In this document: in pieces, positions 28,502-47,288 of the stretch | Position numbering within the stretch: the first letter of the stretch is position 1 | How the letters are laid out: each line of letters starts with the position of its first letter | Assembly (NCBI GenBank): GCA_903837495.1 | Contig: CAILUT010000001.1 | Span: forward strand, 1 to 64,000 | DNA length: 64,000 nucleotides | Source of the DNA: an uncultured Flavobacteriales bacterium | GTDB taxonomy: Bacteria > Bacteroidota > Bacteroidia > CAIKAF01 | Reading direction: 5' to 3' | Translations under genes and position numbers: made by a program | Notes under the pieces: generated by a model | What the model was told of the DNA's origin: nothing | Databases searched by the model: none | Seen by the model: the letters and a program-made list of their open reading frames with translations, nothing else

Positions 28502-30523
28502 ATGTTTGCATCCAACCTATTCTTTTTTATGCGTCTATTTTGGCTTGTTGTTGTTGGATTTATGCATGCCTATTCTACTCATGCCCAGCCCGGTTGCCCC
28601 GAAATTTTTGCAGGCAACGACACGGTTGTTCCTTGCACCAATTCCTGCATTGATTTGGTGGCCCAACCCTTTCGGGTGGGCGAAACAACGTCTTATACCG
28701 TTGAATCTATTCCTTACAATCCCCCCTTCCCATATACCGCTGGCACCCCTCTTTTTATTGGAATTGATGATATATGGAGTCCGGTTCAACCGCTCCCCTT
28801 TCCCTTTTGCTATTTTGGAAACGCTTACAATCAGGTGGTTGTTGGCACCAATGGTGTTCTGACTTTCGATGTAACACAAGCAAACAATTATTGCGCTTGG
28901 GCATTTAATGCCTCTTTGCCAAGCAATGCCTTGTTTCCCAACACCATTTTCGGAGCGTATCACGACATTGACCCTTCTATTTGCGGTCAAATTGCCGTAC
29001 AAGTTTCAGGAAACTCGCCCTGCCGAACCTTTGTTTTTAATTTCTCGAACGTTTGCCATTTCAACTGCAACAACCTGCAAACAACCCAGCAAATTGTGTT
29101 GTATGAAACAACCAACATCATTGAGGTTTACATTCAAAACAAGCCAACATGTGCGAACTGGAACAGCGGGAATGCGCTGATTGGAATACAAGATGCCTCG
29201 GCCACCAATGCCGTTGTTCCTCCAAACAGAAATACAGGCCCGTGGACCGCGGCAAATGAGGCTTGGCGGTTTGTTCCAGCTGGCGCACCCACCTATCAAG
29301 TTCGTTGGTTCGAAGGCGGGAACGTAATAGGACAAGGCGATACCATATCGGTTTGCCCCAACACACAAACCACCTACACCGCAGAAGCTGTTTATACCCG
29401 ATGCGATGGAAGCCAAATAACGGTAACAGACGATGTAGTTGTGGATTTGGTTGGCAGCCCTGCCCTGCCCAGCGCAAATTTGCCCGTTTGTGCCGGCGAT
29501 ACGCTTCGGCTGCAGGCCAATTCCAGTGGACCTGATTTCATTTGGGTCGGGCCTTCAAATTTTAATTCCCTAGCCCCCAACCCCATTCTGGAAAATGTGG
29601 GCCAAGGAAATGCCGGCATGTATGCACTTACCATTACCGATACGGCAGGGTGTGTTTCAACGGGATATGTTTGGGTTACAGTCAACCCGCTACCTCGGCC
29701 TGGGTTTTCATTTCTACAACCTATTTGCGAGGGGACTTCCCTTCTGATTTCAGATACATCTTCCTTTTCAGGGCCAGGCCTGATTTCCAGCTATGCATGG
29801 AACATCAACGGTGCAAATGGGTACATCGATAGCTCAAACCAGCAAGAGCCAACCTTTAGCAATATACCTGCAGGTGCTTTCCAAATTCAGTTGGTGCTAA
29901 CTACCGATAGCGGATGTGTTGATACCCTTAAAAGAACGGGGCTGATTTCCGAAAATCCGCAGGCGCAATTTGCCTATCAATCCCTTTGCTTTAAAGAAAA
30001 TGTTTACCAAGACAGCACATTGGGAGGAAGCCCTCCATACTCCTTGGCTTGGGACTGGAATAACGATGGGATTACCGACACAACGGTGCAGTCCTTTTCC
30101 TTTATTCACCCCCAATCCACTGGCCAAGAAATAAGCCTTTCTGTTGTTGACAGCTTAGGTTGCCGCTCAGACACCTCAATGGTGGTCATGGTTATGGAAG
30201 CGGTTGACGAGCCTGTTATGCCCAACGTTTTACACAGAAATCCGAGTATCCCTGGGAACGATTGCTGGAATTTCGAATCCTTTGCCCCCGGCTTTAATAG
30301 CTGCATCGATTATGACCTCTGGATTTATAACCGGTGGGGCATTTTGGTATTTGTTACCAACAACGATGTAGGCAATCCCGACTTAAATTGCCAGCGGTGC
30401 TTTTGCGGTCAAACCAACAACCAATCCACTCTTTCCACGGGAACCTACTTCTATATTTTGAAAGGGAAGGGTGAATTCGGTGAGGGAATAGAGCTTCAAG
30501 GACAACTAATGGTCATGGAATAA
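28502..30523 (+). CDS. Large secreted protein with PKD-like domains and atypical type B sorting domain
   Basis: 673 residues; the ATG at 28529 is an equally good start. The signal peptide ends near STHAQ. Then a cysteine-rich N-terminal beta domain (about 30-260), Ig/PKD-like modules (about 270-570) and a C-terminal about 100-residue domain (MPNVLHRNPSIPGNDCW, YNRWGILVF, GTYFYILKGKGE) resembling the gliding-associated T9SS type B signal, but with extra cysteines and without the usual PNGDGxND. The last about 285 residues closely match the end of the next gene product. Probably surface-exposed; ligand unknown. Confidence 0.75.
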   Translation: MFASNLFFFMRLFWLVVVGFMHAYSTHAQPGCPEIFAGNDTVVPCTNSCIDLVAQPFRVGETTSYTVESIPYNPPFPYTAGTPLFIGIDDIWSPVQPLPFPFCYFGNAYNQVVVGTNGVLTFDVTQANNYCAWAFNASLPSNALFPNTIFGAYHDIDPSICGQIAVQVSGNSPCRTFVFNFSNVCHFNCNNLQTTQQIVLYETTNIIEVYIQNKPTCANWNSGNALIGIQDASATNAVVPPNRNTGPWTAANEAWRFVPAGAPTYQVRWFEGGNVIGQGDTISVCPNTQTTYTAEAVYTRCDGSQITVTDDVVVDLVGSPALPSANLPVCAGDTLRLQANSSGPDFIWVGPSNFNSLAPNPILENVGQGNAGMYALTITDTAGCVSTGYVWVTVNPLPRPGFSFLQPICEGTSLLISDTSSFSGPGLISSYAWNINGANGYIDSSNQQEPTFSNIPAGAFQIQLVLTTDSGCVDTLKRTGLISENPQAQFAYQSLCFKENVYQDSTLGGSPPYSLAWDWNNDGITDTTVQSFSFIHPQSTGQEISLSVVDSLGCRSDTSMVVMVMEAVDEPVMPNVLHRNPSIPGNDCWNFESFAPGFNSCIDYDLWIYNRWGILVFVTNNDVGNPDLNCQRCFCGQTNNQSTLSTGTYFYILKGKGEFGEGIELQGQLMVME

Positions 30524-30727
30524 TGGTTTGAAAACATTTTTTAGTTTTCAGCTCTTGGCCTCTCCCTTAGGGTTTGCCTCAGGGTTTTTTTTGTACCATA
30601 CGTTGTATTTCTAAAAACTTCACCCATACTTAATCTAATTTCCAATGCGATTTGATTTAACTTTGGGTGGGTTTTTCCCTGAATTGTTTGGTGCATTTTT
30701 CGATTTTATCAAGATATAATTTTAGAT

Positions 30728-33700
30728 ATGAAAACAAACCGACTGCTATTCATGTTGGCGCTGGGATTTTCATTGTTGTCTATTCATGGCCAATCCAACA
30801 ACATAACAACCTTCCTTCGGGTTGAAAAAATTCCCGGTTTAAATTTCGGATTGGCATTTTCAGAAACCAGCGACATGGGATTTATTGGAACCGGCCAAGA
30901 CGATGGCCCCGGTGGGCATGGCATGTGTGATTTATATGTAATGAAGGTAGATGAGTGCGGCGTTACACAATGGTATTACCGCTATGGTGGGCAAGACGAG
31001 GAAGGCGGAAAATTTGTACGTCAAACCAGCAATGGGGGGTTTATTATTGCAGGATTGGCCCGATCTTGGGGTGCGGGCAGCTACGACTCCTGGCTGGTGC
31101 GGCTAAATCCACAAGGCCAATTGCAATGGTCTAGAACATTCGGCACCGGAAACGACGATTTTGGACTTTGTACCGACGAAACTCCCGATGGAGGCTTTTT
31201 AATGGGGGGGTTCTGGGGCAGCCCACAATATGGATTTATTTTAAAAACAGACGCCAATGGGAATCCGGTTTGGCAAAAAAATGTGGAACTGACAAACGCC
31301 TGGGTAAATTATGTGGAAGCCCTTCCCGGGGGCGACATTTTTATTGCAGGCCAATTTATTGGGCCTTTTGGTGGGCAAGATATGTTTGCTGCCCGATTAA
31401 ACTCCCTTGGCAACCCAATATGGACTCGGAGTTATGGAATGGCTGGGAATGATGGAATTGATTGGGATTTAACAGGAAAAATCACCCCGACTGGCAATTT
31501 GCTGATTTCTGCCTCAACGTCCAGCATGGGGCAAGGGTACGATATGCTGTTGATGAGTTTAGAGGGAACCACAGGCAACATCCAATGGTCAAAGGTTTTA
31601 CAAGGTTCTGGAGAAGACCGCGCCCATTTTGTGAATTTTACCTCAAACAACCTTATTCTGCAAAGTGGATATACAACAAGCTGGGGCAATGGCGGAGCCG
31701 ATGTGCTGTTCAACGTGTATGACACGGTGGGGAATCGGCTGTGGAGCAAGACCTATGGCAGCAGCAGCCTAGACAAGGGCTGGGGAATTCAAGAAACGCA
31801 AGACGGGGGATTTTTAGTGTCGGCCTCTACCCAAGGTTTTGGCGCCCTGTATTTTGACCCTATGTTTATAAAAGTGGATAGCCTTGGTGGGTTGGCAAAC
31901 TGCCCTTACAGTACCACCCCAACCCCAACCATGCTCAATCCCACTTTGTCGAGCGGCACATTAAGTCCAAATTATGGGAGTATTTCTATTCTAACCGCCT
32001 CGCCCAACCCGGCTCCCATTTCAATCGTACCCAACAGCGATATCATTTGTTTTAACTGCAACAATGTGCCTCAATTTGTTGTTTCTGACACTTCAATTTG
32101 TTTGGGCGACTCCATTGTTCTTTGGAACAATACCACCGTTGGACTTATTTGCAGCCAAGACTGGCAAATTAACGACAGCAGCGGAGTCCTAATGGTCTCT
32201 CTTCCTGGAACAGACAGCCTAATTTATTATTTCAGCCAAGTGGGACGGTACATGATTCGGCTTGAGGCGACTTGCAATAACGTAACAAATTACGACTCCA
32301 TTGAGGTGGTAATACGGCCTAAGCCAGAGGGAAACATGTCTCTTAATCCCCTTTGCCTAAATGCCCAGCCCAGCCAATTCTCAGGATCTTCTACCTTTTT
32401 CCCAACCCAATGGAGTTGGAATTTTGGCGATGGAAACTCTTCCAATCAGCAAAATCCCGCACATACCTACACGCTGCCTGGGAACTACCAGGTTGAACTC
32501 TTCGTTACCAACATGTATGGCTGCCTCGATACCATTACCGATACGCTAAACATTCATCCCGTTCCACAAGCAAATATTCAGGCTCCCAACACGCTCTGTT
32601 TCGGGCAAACGTCCACGGCAAGCGTTCAAATAAGCGGAGGAACCGCTCCATATTCCCAAGTTTGGAATACCGGGGCAACCACATCTTCCATCCCTCTTAA
32701 TGCTACAGGGAACATCGACTTATCGGTTCAAGTTATTGATGCGAATGGGTGTGTGGCCCTTTTGGCCAATGATACGGTTCTGGTTAGCCCGCCTCTTTTG
32801 GTCAATTCCCTACCCGATGACACCATTTGCCTAGGACAAACTGCATCTATTGGGGCAAACCTACAAGGAGGAAACGGAAATCCGACCTTGAGTTGGACGA
32901 ATGGAGTTCCTCAGGGGCCCGGCCCGCATAACGTTACGCCAACTCAAACCACAATCTACATTGTAACGGCTTCAGATGGATGCACCGTTCCAAACGATAC
33001 AGATACAATGACCGTGGTGGTAAATCCTATGCCATCGGCCTCGTTTAGCAGCAATCCGAATCAAGGTTGTCAACCTTTAACGGTTCAATTTCAAAACAAC
33101 AGTACCATAGGCAGCGGTCAAATAGTTTCACATGTGTGGGTTTTTGGCGATGGGAACTCGGCTTCCAACGCGAACGTTGTTCACACCTTTAACACCAGCG
33201 GAACTTTCCCGGTTACCCTAATTGTAACCTCTGACCTTGGTTGTGTTGATTCTATTAGCCCTCCAGCCATCGTAGTTCACCCCCTTCCCGTTGCAGGCTT
33301 TTCCTATCCACTTCCGCTTTGTGAAGGCGAAGCGTTGGTAATAACCGATACCTCTTCGGTCGTTGCCCCAGGAATTATAAACGGATTTGCCTGGAACATT
33401 ACCTCGGCCGGAGGATACATCAATAGTTCAAACCAACAAAATCCAAGTTTCACCAATGTGCCTGTAGGGCCCTTCCAAATTCAATTTAGAGTTACCACCG
33501 ACAAAGGCTGCAGCGATACGCTGTTGTTTGATGGAATGGTATCTATAAATCCTGAAGCCATGTTTACCTATCTGTCGCTATGCCCTCTAGAAAACGCGTA
33601 TCAAGACAGTTCAACGGGAGGAACAGCGCCTTATTCATTGGCTTGGGACTGGAACAACGATGGAGTAACGGATACTACGGCCGAAAACTTCATTTACAAC

Positions 33701-34117
33701 CACCCCCAGGCTTCAAATCAAAACATGAGTTTAACTGTTATTGATGCCCAGGGCTGCCGGTCTCAACTGGTTTTGCCGGTAGATGTAATGGATTCAATCC
33801 CAACCCCAATTATGCCGAATGTTTTACACCGAAATCCAAGCATTCCTGGAAACGATTGCTGGGATTTCGAGGTGTTTGCCCCCGGATTTAACCCTTGCAT
33901 AGATTACGACTTCTATGTTTACAATAGATGGGGCGTATTGGTATTCCAAACGGAAAACACCAAGGCCAATCCCGACCAAAATTGCCTGCGCTGCTTTTGC
34001 GGGGTCTCCAACAATCAAACGCTGCTCAGCTCTGGGATCTATTACTATATTTTAAAAGGAAAAGGAGAAATTGGGGCAGGAATTGAACTTCAAGGTCAGC
34101 TTATGCTGATGGAATAA
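30728..34117 (+). CDS. Giant secreted propeller/PKD protein with the same atypical C-terminal domain
   Basis: 1129 residues with a signal peptide (to about 21, IHGQ). Residues about 25-400 are repeated blades such as YDSWLVRLNPQGQLQWSRTF and DMLLMSLEGTTGNIQWSKVL, suggesting a beta-propeller. Several PKD domains follow (WSWNFGDGNSSNQQNPAHTY; HVWVFGDGNSASNANVVHTF). The C terminus repeats the MPNVLHRNPSIPGNDCWDF, APGFNPCIDYDFYVYNRWG, NCLRCFCG arrangement of its neighbour. Likely T9SS-exported and adhesive or structural (inference). It has its own AT-rich upstream region with a TAATTTTA box three bases from the ATG. Confidence 0.8.
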   Translation: MKTNRLLFMLALGFSLLSIHGQSNNITTFLRVEKIPGLNFGLAFSETSDMGFIGTGQDDGPGGHGMCDLYVMKVDECGVTQWYYRYGGQDEEGGKFVRQTSNGGFIIAGLARSWGAGSYDSWLVRLNPQGQLQWSRTFGTGNDDFGLCTDETPDGGFLMGGFWGSPQYGFILKTDANGNPVWQKNVELTNAWVNYVEALPGGDIFIAGQFIGPFGGQDMFAARLNSLGNPIWTRSYGMAGNDGIDWDLTGKITPTGNLLISASTSSMGQGYDMLLMSLEGTTGNIQWSKVLQGSGEDRAHFVNFTSNNLILQSGYTTSWGNGGADVLFNVYDTVGNRLWSKTYGSSSLDKGWGIQETQDGGFLVSASTQGFGALYFDPMFIKVDSLGGLANCPYSTTPTPTMLNPTLSSGTLSPNYGSISILTASPNPAPISIVPNSDIICFNCNNVPQFVVSDTSICLGDSIVLWNNTTVGLICSQDWQINDSSGVLMVSLPGTDSLIYYFSQVGRYMIRLEATCNNVTNYDSIEVVIRPKPEGNMSLNPLCLNAQPSQFSGSSTFFPTQWSWNFGDGNSSNQQNPAHTYTLPGNYQVELFVTNMYGCLDTITDTLNIHPVPQANIQAPNTLCFGQTSTASVQISGGTAPYSQVWNTGATTSSIPLNATGNIDLSVQVIDANGCVALLANDTVLVSPPLLVNSLPDDTICLGQTASIGANLQGGNGNPTLSWTNGVPQGPGPHNVTPTQTTIYIVTASDGCTVPNDTDTMTVVVNPMPSASFSSNPNQGCQPLTVQFQNNSTIGSGQIVSHVWVFGDGNSASNANVVHTFNTSGTFPVTLIVTSDLGCVDSISPPAIVVHPLPVAGFSYPLPLCEGEALVITDTSSVVAPGIINGFAWNITSAGGYINSSNQQNPSFTNVPVGPFQIQFRVTTDKGCSDTLLFDGMVSINPEAMFTYLSLCPLENAYQDSSTGGTAPYSLAWDWNNDGVTDTTAENFIYNHPQASNQNMSLTVIDAQGCRSQLVLPVDVMDSIPTPIMPNVLHRNPSIPGNDCWDFEVFAPGFNPCIDYDFYVYNRWGVLVFQTENTKANPDQNCLRCFCGVSNNQTLLSSGIYYYILKGKGEIGAGIELQGQLMLME

Positions 34118-34232: not shown

Positions 34233-34712
34233 ATGCATCGATTTTCTCTTTCTCTCGGATTTGCCATTCTGTTTTCGCTCCTGTTTTCAATGCAGGTTTT
34301 GGCACAGCGCGAAGTATTGCCCGCCGGAGGCGATGCACAAGGGGGTTCCGGCTCCTTTTCTTGGTCGATCGGCCAAGCGGCCGACCTTCATTATTCAGGT
34401 TCCGATGGTTTTATTTCAGAAGGCGTACAGCAGCCTGCGGAATTCTTTCTGACCGGTGCAGATGTGCTGGAGCTGCCCCATTTGCATTTATTCCCCAATC
34501 CTACAACTCGACGCATTCAACTGCTTGGCTTGGAATCGATCGCATTGCCCGCCTTTTATCGCATTTTAAACGCAATGGGCCAAGAATTGCTCAGCGGCGA
34601 ATTGTTGATTCAGCAACCCGTCATTTCGGTGGTTGAATTGCCCGCAGGGGTCTATATCCTTCTCTTACCGAATGCACCTGAATCCCCTTCCTTCACTTTT
34701 GTTAAACACTAA
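34233..34712 (+). CDS. Small T9SS type A sorting-domain protein
   Basis: 159 residues. Signal peptide ending near QVLAQ. A short unique section with GGSGSFSWSIGQ and GFISEGVQQP, a pair common in Bacteroidota proteins that end in a sorting domain. Then a full type A sorting domain (LHLFPNPTTRRIQLLG, LPAGVYILLL). It has almost no cargo of its own, so it may be a minimal surface protein or an accessory to the S74 protein 14 bp downstream. A TAACTTTG box lies 32 bases upstream of the ATG. Confidence 0.75.
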   Translation: MHRFSLSLGFAILFSLLFSMQVLAQREVLPAGGDAQGGSGSFSWSIGQAADLHYSGSDGFISEGVQQPAEFFLTGADVLELPHLHLFPNPTTRRIQLLGLESIALPAFYRILNAMGQELLSGELLIQQPVISVVELPAGVYILLLPNAPESPSFTFVKH

Positions 34713-37894: not shown

Positions 37895-38005
37895 ATGCTC
37901 AGCTTGCGTTCCGAAGGTTGGCATTGCACACAAGGCGATTTTTACATTGACCCCTGCAAGCCCCTTGCAAGGGCCGTGGTTACACATGCGCATGCCGACC
38001 ATGCA
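37895..38005 (+). pseudogene. 5' fragment of the ligase-associated exonuclease gene
   Basis: Encodes MLSLRSEGWHCTQGDFYIDP and on through VVTHAHADH, almost the same as the start of the intact gene at 38107, then runs into non-homologous GC-rich repeat sequence. The -7 box of this copy reads TGCCTTTA instead of TATCTTTA, so its promoter is probably weakened. The open frame continues to 38422 in another register across the real gene and is not a functional product. Confidence 0.88.
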
Positions 38006-38094
38006 GGTCGCGGCCGCGGCCATCCCCTTGCCTGCCGCTGCAATCCGGGGGCCGGGCCTCGGCATTTCTTGGACCTCAACGCCCAAATTTCGGT

Positions 38095-38102
38095 TATCTT
38101 TA
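38095..38102 (+). promoter_or_regulatory. -7 box of the exonuclease-ligase operon, leaderless spacing
   Basis: TATCTTTA, four bases (ACCG), then the ATG at 38107. The duplicated copy upstream has TGCCTTTA at 37883-37890. Confidence 0.6.
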
Positions 38103-38106
38103 ACCG

Positions 38107-39093
38107 ATGCTCAGCTTGCGTTCCGAAGGTTTGTATTGCGAACAGGGCGATTTTTACATCGACCCCTGGAAGCCCGTTGCAAGGGCCGTGGTTACACATG
38201 CGCATGCCGACCATGCACGACGGGGCATGGGAAGCTATTTGGCTCCTTTTTTCTCGAAAAACGTGCTCAAACTCAGGCTGGGAAAACACATTCGCCTTGA
38301 TACTTTGCCCTTTGGTCAAAAACACTACATTCGGGGCCTGTCTTTGTCGTTTCACCCGGCGGGACACATACCGGGGTCCGCACAAATACGCTTGGAATAC
38401 CGCGGAGAAGTGTGGGTGGTGAGTGGCGATTATAAAACCACACCCGACGGACTTAGCCACCCTTTCGAGCCCCTGACCTGCCATACCTTTATTACTGAAA
38501 GCACCTTTGGCATGCCCTTGTTTCAATTTCCAGATCAAGAAACCGTGTTTTCTGAAATGGAAGCTTGGTACAGGCGTTGTTCTGGGGCGGGAGAACTGCC
38601 TGTTGTTCTGGCCTACTCTCTGGGCAAAGCTCAAAGAGTGATGCTTGGGCTTCACCAAAGGGGAATTCCTGTGGCCTTGCACTCCTCCGTTTGGGAAACC
38701 CATGAGGCACTGCGAAAAAATGGGTTTGGCCTGCCCCCAGCTCCTAAATGGTATGCCCGCAATGTTCCAGAACGAATGCCGGTGTTGATTGCTCCTCCGG
38801 GCGCCATTCGTGGAGCCGGTTTTTTGCGAAAACAGCCGCACCAACTGGCTGCGGCTTCAGGCTGGATGCATTTAAAAGGCTTGCGCCGCCGGGCAGGCTA
38901 CGAAATGGGATTTGTGCTCTCTGACCACGCCGATTGGAACGGTCTCTTGTATGCGATTCAAGAAACCAAAGCAGAACAGGTTTGGATTACCCATGGGTAT
39001 TCTGACGTACTAAGCCGTTTTTTGCGGGAACAAGGAATCCAGGCTCAGACCTTGGAAACCCATTTTGGGCAAACCGATGACGACAGCGAATGA
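38107..39093 (+). CDS. Ligase-associated DNA exonuclease (metallo-beta-lactamase fold)
   Basis: 328 residues. The metal-binding motif is HAHADH (residues 31-36). PAGHIPGSAQIRLEY, VSGDYKTTPDGLSHPFEPL, FITESTFGMP and FVLSDHADWNGLL are typical of the beta-CASP-type exonuclease 'ligase-associated' family. It is thought to act with the neighbouring ATP-dependent ligase in DNA repair. The start overlaps no gene but has a -7 box four bases upstream. It overlaps the ligase gene by 4 bp (ATGA). The promoter and first 37 codons are duplicated just upstream. Confidence 0.92.
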   Translation: MLSLRSEGLYCEQGDFYIDPWKPVARAVVTHAHADHARRGMGSYLAPFFSKNVLKLRLGKHIRLDTLPFGQKHYIRGLSLSFHPAGHIPGSAQIRLEYRGEVWVVSGDYKTTPDGLSHPFEPLTCHTFITESTFGMPLFQFPDQETVFSEMEAWYRRCSGAGELPVVLAYSLGKAQRVMLGLHQRGIPVALHSSVWETHEALRKNGFGLPPAPKWYARNVPERMPVLIAPPGAIRGAGFLRKQPHQLAAASGWMHLKGLRRRAGYEMGFVLSDHADWNGLLYAIQETKAEQVWITHGYSDVLSRFLREQGIQAQTLETHFGQTDDDSE

Positions 39094-44510: not shown

Positions 44511-47288
44511 TTAGCGGATTAGATTCACGTTGGCGACTCTGGTTTTCCATCGTTTTTCCTTGGAATCATAGTAGCGAACGGCCACCGTATAAACGCCTTG
44601 CATGCAAGGTTCGTTCATATAATTGCCATCCCACCACTGATTGAAGTTTTTAGCCGTAAACAGCAATTCTCCCCAGCGGTCGTAAATAGAAAAGGAGCCT
44701 TCGGTTATGGTGCTGTTGTGGTACACCTTAAAGACCTCGTTGAGTCCGTCTCCGTTCACCGTAAAGGCATTGGGAATCCATAGGGCTTCGTCGTCTAGGT
44801 TGGAGGGGGGCGGCGGCGGGTCGATTGGGCTATCGGGTTCGCGCACAAAATGAGCAATCAGGGTATCGGTTTCGCCAAAAGTAAGGAAGGCTTGGTCGGC
44901 CGAAGAATCGGGGACCATGTTGTGATGGAAAATTTCCCAGTAGTCGAACAGATAGCCAGCAACCGGCAAGGCTTCTAGGTTCAATACATTCCCTGCAATT
45001 TGGGTTTGAGTTAGCGGGTAAACGGGCAAAACGGTACCGTTGCTGCGAATGCTGCCGCTAAGCGGAGGACTGACATCGTAGGTTATGGTTAGGGAATCGG
45101 TGCGCACAAAAATAGCGACAATGCTGTCGGCTTGCATTAGGGTGAATGCCGCGGGATTTACCGTAGAATCTGGAAGCAGGGTGTGGTTAAACAGCTCCCA
45201 ATGCGAGAAATTCCAGCCTACTTTGGCGGTTGCCGTCATGTTGGCCTGCAGGTTGCCGAACCAACTTTGGGACCAAGGATAATTGGCCTGTTGAAACCCA
45301 TTGAAATTCACATCGCCAGAGTTGGGTGGCCACACATTAATAACCACAGGGTGAGGCCCATCCACATCGTAGCAGTCTTCCAATCCTTGCTCAATGACCT
45401 GGCAGCGGCCGGTTATTTGGTTTCGAAGAAAGAGCAAGTTGTTTTGCCATTCGTTCATGCTTCCCCCCCAGCGGGTGATGTGCCTTGGCATTTCAACCGT
45501 TAAGATGTTGATAATAGAATCGAGGTGGGTCAACACATAGGGACAAGAAAGGCCTCCGGCAGAAAGTTGCTGATACCGATTTAGGTAAGCGGCTTTAAAG
45601 CCGGGGTTTTCCATGAGTTTGCTAAAAATAACCATGTGGCCAATTTCGGGGCCTGAATTCGGGAACATATCGTCGTATTCGCAGGGGTCGGCGTTAAAGT
45701 CGGTGGTAGGAAGGCCCGTATAATTATGCCCTAAATTGAAAATGTTGTCTTGGTCCCAAAGTGCATAGCGCCAGGGCACGCCGTTTCCGCCGTTTCCTTT
45801 CCACCACATGGTATTCCAGTTGAGCCAATCGGAATTGACGGACCAGGTATTCAGAATCATGTAATCAATCACATTGTTGACATCAAGCTGGGTGGCCACG
45901 CTTTGGTAATTGGCTTGCACCTGCATGGAATTGGCGGTAACATAGTTGTACAAATTGTTCCAATCGTTGGGCGATCCGTATCGAACATTTAATCCACCCC
46001 AAAAACTTAAGAAATCCAGGTCCTTCTTTTCTTGGCCGTGGTAAAATTTAGTGTAGTCGGGGTCGTTCACTTTTTCGCGGCATTCGTAAAGGCCCCAATA
46101 GTTTCCATTGATAAAAACGATGCAATGTTCCAGTCGGCGCAAATCGGCGTTCATCCCAATTTTCTCGGCCAGGCTTTGAACAAAAGCATCGCGCAGGTGG
46201 CAGCCGCCGTTCCCCCAAGTGTAGGGGTAATTGTCGGAGGCTCCGGCCTTAAACATAATGCGTTGGTAATCGGGGCGGGGGCTGGTATGGAAAATGGGGT
46301 AATTCATTTCTTGGTCGTACCCACATTCGTCTTTGGTAATAAAGTCAATGCCTTTTTGAGGAAAGGCCCAAGAGTCGTTTCCGTGTTTGTTTACTTCTCC
46401 GTACGATTCAAAGAGGAATTGTTGATTGGCACTGAAGTATTCTAGGTGCGAGAAAATGCGGAGGTTTCCATTGGCAAAAATGGCATTGTAATCGGTGGAA
46501 GAAAGGCTAACTACGGGCAAACTGAAGTTCTCGTTAATAAAATAGGAATGGGTGCTAACCCATCCGGGCAGGAAACCGGGTTGTGTTGGGAAAGCTCTAG
46601 CCCGAAGCACGGTGGTGGCTGCAACGGAAATAGGGCTGGCATACAATGCGGAAGTGGGTGTTGGTTCGGCCCCGTTGGTGGTGTATCGAATTTCGGCGGT
46701 AGGGTCGCTGCACGCTAGGGCCACATTTTGGGTTGTGGTATAAAATCCTCGGGGCACATTTACGGTTATTGGGGGCATGTAGTTGGTAGATGCGCCGGTA
46801 TTGGAAGCGTTGGGGGTAGGATTCGTAAAAACCCCCCAAGTTGCAGCTCCGTCGGTGCTGCGTCCGGCCGAGTGGTTTCGGGCGGCTTTTTGAATGGCAA
46901 CCTGATCTATAGAGCTGCCCATCGCATCGCTAAGCACAATGGATTCTGGGTTTTCGCTTTGCCGCAGTTTAAAACTGGTATGGTAGGGAGGTGTATTGGT
47001 GATATTCAGGTCGGAAGCAAAAACCAAAAGATAGCCACCGGCGGCTACATTGGTGGTTGGAATGGGCCATTTTAATGGATTTGAGGGATTGTCGCTCAAA
47101 AATAAGCCGGCAGTATTAACGGCTGCTCCGGTAGGATTGTAAAGTTCAATCCAGTCTTCAAAATCGCCAAATTGATCGGCATAATCGTTGTAGTTGGAAC
47201 AGGAATATTCATTGATGACCAACTGCGCAGAAAGCGGATGCGCTCCGACACCAAAAAACAAGAGCAGAAGGGCATAGAAATGTTTCAT
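44511..47288 (-). CDS. Lamin-tail and CotH kinase-domain surface protein with type B sorting domain
   Basis: 925 residues with a signal peptide (to about 21, PLSAQ). Lamin-tail domain (about 22-130, LVINEYSCSNYNDYADQFG), chitobiase-type beta-sandwich (about 165-245, RGFYTTTQNVALACSDPTAE), CotH protein-kinase-like domain (about 260-620, GEVNKHGNDSWAFPQKGIDF; FINGNYWGLYECREKVND), two bacterial repeat modules ending in ADSIVAIF and TDTLIAHF, and a canonical type B T9SS signal (IPNAFTVNGDGLNEVF, SIYDRWGELLF). CotH kinases phosphorylate coat proteins in spores; the target here is unknown. Coupled to the next gene by a 4-bp overlap. Confidence 0.88.
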   Translation of the reverse strand: MKHFYALLLLFFGVGAHPLSAQLVINEYSCSNYNDYADQFGDFEDWIELYNPTGAAVNTAGLFLSDNPSNPLKWPIPTTNVAAGGYLLVFASDLNITNTPPYHTSFKLRQSENPESIVLSDAMGSSIDQVAIQKAARNHSAGRSTDGAATWGVFTNPTPNASNTGASTNYMPPITVNVPRGFYTTTQNVALACSDPTAEIRYTTNGAEPTPTSALYASPISVAATTVLRARAFPTQPGFLPGWVSTHSYFINENFSLPVVSLSSTDYNAIFANGNLRIFSHLEYFSANQQFLFESYGEVNKHGNDSWAFPQKGIDFITKDECGYDQEMNYPIFHTSPRPDYQRIMFKAGASDNYPYTWGNGGCHLRDAFVQSLAEKIGMNADLRRLEHCIVFINGNYWGLYECREKVNDPDYTKFYHGQEKKDLDFLSFWGGLNVRYGSPNDWNNLYNYVTANSMQVQANYQSVATQLDVNNVIDYMILNTWSVNSDWLNWNTMWWKGNGGNGVPWRYALWDQDNIFNLGHNYTGLPTTDFNADPCEYDDMFPNSGPEIGHMVIFSKLMENPGFKAAYLNRYQQLSAGGLSCPYVLTHLDSIINILTVEMPRHITRWGGSMNEWQNNLLFLRNQITGRCQVIEQGLEDCYDVDGPHPVVINVWPPNSGDVNFNGFQQANYPWSQSWFGNLQANMTATAKVGWNFSHWELFNHTLLPDSTVNPAAFTLMQADSIVAIFVRTDSLTITYDVSPPLSGSIRSNGTVLPVYPLTQTQIAGNVLNLEALPVAGYLFDYWEIFHHNMVPDSSADQAFLTFGETDTLIAHFVREPDSPIDPPPPPSNLDDEALWIPNAFTVNGDGLNEVFKVYHNSTITEGSFSIYDRWGELLFTAKNFNQWWDGNYMNEPCMQGVYTVAVRYYDSKEKRWKTRVANVNLIR

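Follow-up and report, generated by a model that had tools for sequence, protein, structure and literature searches.

A cysteine-containing, lineage-restricted form of the type B C-terminal secretion signal in an uncultured family of Flavobacteriales

Judged from its sequence, the cysteine-containing C-terminal domain (CTD) shared by two adjacent genes of an uncultured Flavobacteriales bacterium is a real, coherent and lineage-restricted form of the known type B signal of the type IX secretion system (T9SS) of Bacteroidota. The window, that is, the whole stretch of 64,000 nucleotides that was analysed, corresponds to positions 1 to 64,000 of contig CAILUT010000001.1 (assembly GCA_903837495.1), and the features of the two genes are listed in Table 1. 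No publication describing type B CTDs in such a cysteine-containing form was found in the literature search performed.

Table 1. Features of the two adjacent genes of the window that carry the variant type B CTD
Feature	Coordinates	Strand	Description
Gene 1 (P0001), 673 aa	28502..30523	+	Signal peptide, N-terminal region, Ig/PKD-like repeats, variant type B CTD
Gene 1 penultimate PKD domain	29921..30217	+	A-B turn Cys496, F-G loop Cys554; modelled on the gene 2 paralogue
Gene 1 variant CTD, aa 573-673	30218..30520	+	PF13585 39.5 bits (cutoff 27); TIGR04131 no match
Gene 1 C601 codon	30302..30304	+	9 residues before NRWG; 37/37 variants, 11/11 canonical family relatives
Gene 1 insertion NPDLNCQRC (C630, C633)	30374..30400	+	CxxC in 37/37 variants, absent in 11/11 canonical family relatives
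Gene 2 (P0002), 1129 aa	30728..34117	+	Signal peptide, SBBP/delta-60 type beta-propeller repeats, PKD domains, variant type B CTD
Gene 2 penultimate PKD domain	33515..33811	+	A-B turn Cys952, F-G loop Cys1010; AlphaFold pLDDT 88
Gene 2 variant CTD, aa 1029-1129	33812..34114	+	PF13585 37.9 bits (cutoff 27); TIGR04131 13 bits (cutoff 35)
Gene 2 C1057 codon	33896..33898	+	Same position as gene 1 C601
Gene 2 insertion NPDQNCLRC (C1086, C1089)	33968..33994	+	CxxC[FWY] after RWG: 36/36 variants, 0/137 canonical

The preliminary description of this DNA had pointed to two neighbouring "giants" whose ends match closely. The match was confirmed, as P0001 and P0002 are 62.5% identical over their last 285 residues and 76.2% identical over the last 101, their end alignment scores 451 whereas shuffled sequences reached a mean of -35 (sd 12.6, maximum 11), and BLASTP aligns the two proteins over 396 aa with E=2e-127. 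All motifs quoted at that stage, MPNVLHRNPSIPGNDCW, APGFNxCIDYD, NRWG, C(Q/L)RCFCG and G(T/I)Y(F/Y)YILKGKGE, were found in the sequences. The two adjacent genes are real and intact, but their products are of mid-range size only, and the conserved end of about 285 matching residues comprises two domains, a penultimate PKD domain and a CTD of roughly 100 aa. Translation of gene 1 may in fact begin at a later ATG, located at 28529 (MRLFWLVV...). The pair is kept with the same order and surroundings in three sister genomes (G005, G007 and G009) and is therefore not an assembly artefact. Apart from its CTD, P0001 shares 49% identity over 550 aa with the product of the second gene in the g2 pair. 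The gene that immediately follows the window pair encodes a protein of 159 aa (34233-34712) with a type A (TIGR04183) tail scoring just above the cutoff, and this protein adjoins the pair in the same three sister genomes. Two further observations concern the surroundings: a canonical type B protein (IPNAFTVNGDGLNEVF...DRWG...WWDG), encoded about 10 kb away on the reverse strand (44511-47288), offers a natural internal control, and the start of a metallo-beta-lactamase-fold gene seems to be partly duplicated in tandem (37895-38422 and 38107-39093, with MLSLRSEG...HAHADHA repeated).

CHU_C (PF13585), the family in which Pfam places type B signals, is found above its gathering score at the extreme C terminus of both window genes and matches all 24 variant members that were scanned, although the best match covers only positions 15-72 of the 86 positions of the profile. 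When the same 24 members were compared with the NCBIfam model TIGR04131 for gliding motility-associated or T9SS type B sorting domains (cutoff 35 bits), only 9 reached E<=10 and the best E was 0.0018; the canonical CTDs closest to them within the bacterial family score above this cutoff or just miss it. Similarity of the variants to TIGR04183 (type A) is sub-threshold (8 of 24 members, best E 0.037). TIGR04131 detects 21 type B ends in the window genome, of which 19 score above the cutoff, and a search with variant queries finds five variant ends, the two described here and three elsewhere. A profile-profile comparison (hhalign) of variant with canonical type B CTDs gave a probability of 99.9% and E=1e-30, which, together with the CHU_C matches, identifies the variant as a divergent type B CTD. 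Variant members keep RWG and the G of GxY invariant and the Y almost invariant, PNGDGxND as recognised by one pattern occurs in 0 of 36 variants versus 82 of 137 canonical CTDs, and the W.G motif reads CF.G in nearly all variants, F in place of W being found in canonical relatives as well. The earlier picture of a type B-like domain that retains NRWG and GxYxY, has no PNGDGxND and carries extra conserved cysteines is borne out by 37 members.

These 37 variant domains were retrieved with a profile (A1) built from the five variant copies of the window genome, and they are distributed over 12 of 16 genomes of one uncultured Flavobacteriales family (genera g1, g2 and g5). Their scores range from 93 to 171 bits and the next matches do not exceed 51.6 bits, so that they form a coherent subclass that is separate in profile space. 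A merging of their profile with standard type B, which would have spoken against the preliminary description, is seen as regards homology (PF13585, hhalign and the tree described below) but not as regards profile identity. A class-wide draw of 395 genomes yielded the same 12 carriers and no others, and a phylum-wide draw of 395 genomes yielded a single additional match of 54.5 bits, which has neither PNGDGxND nor CxxC. The variant was not found in about 380-394 other genomes in each of the class-wide and phylum-wide samples; because each genome contributed only a limited set of candidates to the scoring, the evidence that it is missing elsewhere is strong without being absolute.

All 37 members share three invariant CTD cysteines: C1057, C1086 and C1089 of P0002, corresponding to C601, C630 and C633 of P0001. 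One of them is located 9 residues before NRWG (position -9) and the other two form a CxxC just before the F of CF.G. Of the five cysteines initially taken to be conserved, these three are general and the other two, C1044 after ND and C1091 two residues after CxxC (C588 and C635 in P0001), are confined to the window genes and their orthologues, where they always occur together (8 of 37). The CxxC belongs to an insertion, NPDxxCxxC, of 8-12 residues before W/F.G, in which PD and CxxC are invariant together. In 11 of 11 canonical CTDs from the same family the -9 cysteine is present, PNGDGxND or a close form of it is kept and the insertion is missing. The -9 cysteine is therefore the older feature, and the variant arose by loss of the PNGDG loop and gain of the NPDxxCxxC insertion. 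A strict trade of PNGDG for CxxC was rejected, since a CTD from outside the family (G034:C24:4838-5086) has lost PNGDGxND and has not gained CxxC. Variant and canonical ends modelled with AlphaFold (200 aa; pLDDT 88 and 89.7, respectively) have the same order of secondary-structure elements, with the PKD domain first and the CTD after it, and in both the -9 cysteine lies at the end of the same helix. The penultimate PKD domain of gene 2 superimposes on a PKD structure from the PDB with a TM score of 0.84 and an rmsd of 2.0; in the PDB structural search only this domain was matched specifically, and no specific match was obtained for the CTD.

A tree built from 107 CTDs groups 36 of the 37 variants in one clade (SH-aLRT 97) that is nested within canonical type B, close to canonical CTDs from sister genera; this tree rests on a short domain and leaves many of its forks unresolved, and the one member outside the clade (G001 C34) is placed there with weak support. 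The most telling evidence on the evolution of the signal lies in sequence beyond the CTD. One variant gene adjoins uvrA and a gene for a small secreted protein in all 12 carriers. When the CTD was removed from this uvrA-linked cargo, it could be aligned over almost its whole length with a protein from genus g3 (G010b): the G001 protein was 34.6% identical to G010b over 670 aa (E=2e-94), and the corresponding protein of the window genome (G000 C47) was 30% identical to G010b over 679 aa. G000 C47 and G010b have a common architecture of Reelin_subrepeat-B, PKD_4 and CHU_C, and the CTD of G010b is canonical, passing TIGR04131 with 36.1 bits (cutoff 35). Orthologous cargo of full length with a canonical CTD in a sister genus indicates that the signal changed in place on a standing gene. 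An independent origin, as would befit the separate sorting class considered in the preliminary description, is not supported and was rejected on the basis of the CHU_C matches in 24 of 24 members, the hhalign result, the nested clade and the canonical CTD on orthologous cargo. The small secreted protein beside G000 C47 (L252:2276-2719; L378-L391) has about 140 aa, an invariant CxTCxN.EY motif and no match in Pfam or NCBIfam, and in many families of Bacteroidota its gene immediately precedes a Reelin-subrepeat cargo gene, with which it forms a conserved uncharacterised pair. As a dedicated partner of the CxxC it was rejected, because the same protein accompanies Reelin-type cargo in other families and is also present in genera g3 and g4; pairing with related cargo far outside the range of the variant, it tracks the cargo and not the variant.

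Evidence for disulfides comes from covariation among canonical CTDs and from the joint occurrence of C1044 and C1091. Among 186 canonical ends, those with a cysteine at -9 nearly always have another in the A-B turn of the domain before the CTD (22 of 24 versus 43 of 162, p=9e-10), possibly an interdomain disulfide, and a cysteine after ND goes together with one just before W.G (3 of 4 versus 1 of 182, p=1.5e-5); both are Fisher tests that ignore phylogeny, and as the -9 cysteine changed only about six times on the tree, a test with independent pairs was without power. An earlier, smaller sample had associated a cysteine at -13 to -5 with a cysteine before W.G (p=0.003). In the fuller sample this association is mostly accounted for by the pair involving the cysteine after ND, and a pairing of C1057 with the CxxC, suggested by that first sample, was superseded by the larger one. 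Another canonical set, which includes SprB-like CTDs, has a cysteine at about -6 and usually none in the A-B turn. In variant proteins the A-B turn and F-G loop cysteines of the penultimate PKD domain are invariant, both being present in 36 of 36 ends scored. In an Ig-like fold the A-B turn is located at the end that faces the next domain, which would fit a bridge between the PKD domain and the CTD. Such a bridge would also resolve the odd number of CTD cysteines, the predicted pairs being 952-1057, 1086-1089 and 1044-1091. A disulfide-fixed CTD, the second possibility raised in the preliminary description, is plausible, with the covariation in its support. On the opposing side, VKOR was searched for in the window genome and was not found.

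The window genome encodes PorK, PorL, PorM, PorU and GldJ, together with four PorP/SprF proteins (C5, C6, C38 and C62; L258-L261) for about 26 type B ends. PorP/SprF barrels receive type B cargo that is usually encoded next door (PMC12618676). C5 and C62 adjoin canonical type B genes, C6 belongs to the porPKLM operon and C38 is located between porU and gldJ; the tail of C38 has two invariant cysteines 12 residues apart, recalling the twin-cysteine tail of SprF. No porP/sprF gene adjoins the variant genes in the window or in the listed regions of other carriers. In a tree of 86 PorP/SprF proteins from 16 genomes no clade tracks the variant: the C6 and C38 clades are present in nearly all carriers and also in non-carriers of genera g3, g4 and g6, C62 is missing from carriers G006 and G008, and the C5 clade is restricted to g1. 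The shared clades C6 and C38 also show no cysteine gain that accompanies the variant, and a dedicated shuttle was rejected on these two grounds. In Flavobacterium johnsoniae, the orphan type B cargo proteins Fjoh_1123, Fjoh_1720 and Fjoh_4934 share the orphan shuttle Fjoh_1677 (PMC12618676). As the variant genes are orphans and no PorP/SprF clade tracks them, a shared shuttle is likely, and the simplest reading is that a shared barrel, C38 or C6, most likely serves the variant cargo.

Taken together, we consider it likely that the variant is a disulfide-stabilised, lineage-specific derivative of the type B signal that retains its normal function and uses a shared shuttle; that it works as a T9SS signal at all appears probable. 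The cargo, which has N-terminal signal sequences recognisable by eye, would be exported by Sec, and its two-domain PKD-CTD end would fold in the periplasm. An outer-membrane barrel of the PorP/SprF family, shared with other orphan type B cargo, would then receive the CTD as it leaves the SprA/Sov channel; remaining uncleaved, the CTD would hold the cargo on the cell surface. The cysteines would mainly stabilise the signal: C1057 would most likely form a bridge with Cys952, which lies in the A-B turn of the PKD domain before it, C1086 and C1089 would pair to form a closed CxxC loop within the new insertion, and C1044 and C1091, in the window genes and their orthologues only, would link what was once the PNGDG loop with the W.G loop.

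Other functions of the altered CTD have to be weighed against this reading. That the variant constitutes a sorting class of its own, with a dedicated receptor or sortase and a distinct destination for its cargo, would agree with PNGDG and W.G regions altered in all 37 members, with the wide gap to other type B profiles (93 versus 51.6 bits) and with five paralogues on different cargo in the window genome; however, the distribution of the shuttle clades, the lack of a cysteine co-gained in the two shared ones and the occurrence of the CxTC protein with related cargo far beyond the range of the variant make this unlikely. Covalent tethering, in which the CxxC and the third cysteine would engage in thiol-disulfide exchange and leave the cargo disulfide-linked to a carrier or surface protein, draws on the odd number of invariant CTD cysteines and on an established precedent in F. 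johnsoniae, the disulfide chemistry with CxC donors of SprF/PorG-GldK (PMC12635249). Given a bridge between C1057 and the PKD domain, however, the CxxC would pair with itself and no thiol would be left, and the shared shuttle clades show no gain of a corresponding cysteine, so that we regard tethering as very unlikely; if true, it would be an anchoring route that was not found described for type B substrates in the literature searched.

The joint invariance of PD and CxxC and the loss of PNGDG in every member would also suit a metal site, with the three cysteines and the invariant Asp of NPDxxCxxC holding Zn or another metal in place of a Ca-type PNGDGxND loop. By resemblance to similar loops, PNGDGxND may bind Ca. 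There is, however, no conserved fourth ligand such as His, and the loss of PNGDG without gain of CxxC in G034 speaks against a strict trade, which leaves a metal site with only a slim chance of being correct. Least credible of all is decay of a former signal into a merely structural end that no longer directs T9SS export: the PNGDGxND and WDG consensus is lost and TIGR04131 gives no match, but NRWG, GxY and the cysteines are strongly conserved in 37 copies from three genera with up to five paralogues per genome, and a decaying signal would not be expected to maintain such conservation and expansion. A disulfide-stabilised type B signal that uses a shared shuttle remains the reading that we prefer.

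Compared with canonical CHU_C domains (PF13585), the variant has the same C-terminal position, NRWG, GxYxY and predicted order of strands and helices, and is nested in the type B tree, but it differs by the absence of PNGDGxND and by the NPDxxCxxC insertion. It belongs to the same superfamily as the TIGR04131 domains, yet its members fall far below the cutoff of that model and hence are missed. Type A (TIGR04183) and type C (ChiA) CTDs are likewise C-terminal signals of the T9SS, and to the type A model the similarity is sub-threshold only. With the orphan cargo of F. johnsoniae the variant genes have in common that no porP/sprF gene is adjacent and that several related CTDs face few shuttles, whereas the F. 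johnsoniae CTDs belong to the TIGR04131 type B set, unlike the variant. SprF and PorG are disulfide-linked to GldK (PMC12635249), a likeness in that a conserved cysteine pair is found in the T9SS/gliding surface apparatus of Bacteroidota; there the cysteines reside in the periplasmic tails of carrier barrels, whereas those of the variant reside in the cargo CTD.

Surveys based on TIGR04131 miss variant proteins, which in the window genome amount to five beside 21 matching ones. All five conserved CTD motifs of F. johnsoniae SprB are needed for secretion (PMC12618676), and if PNGDGxND is among them, the variant departs from a required motif. Because CTDs that have lost PNGDGxND and gained CxxC still end conserved and expanding cargo families, PNGDGxND is not universal in type B signals. 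The natural swap of CTD type on orthologous cargo provides a matched pair for studying what the shuttle reads. The covariation of cysteines between CTD and PKD domain, if confirmed, suggests that both domains form one unit in the variant branch, and such a unit would bear on the length of type B signals, which need up to about 235 residues (PMC12618676).
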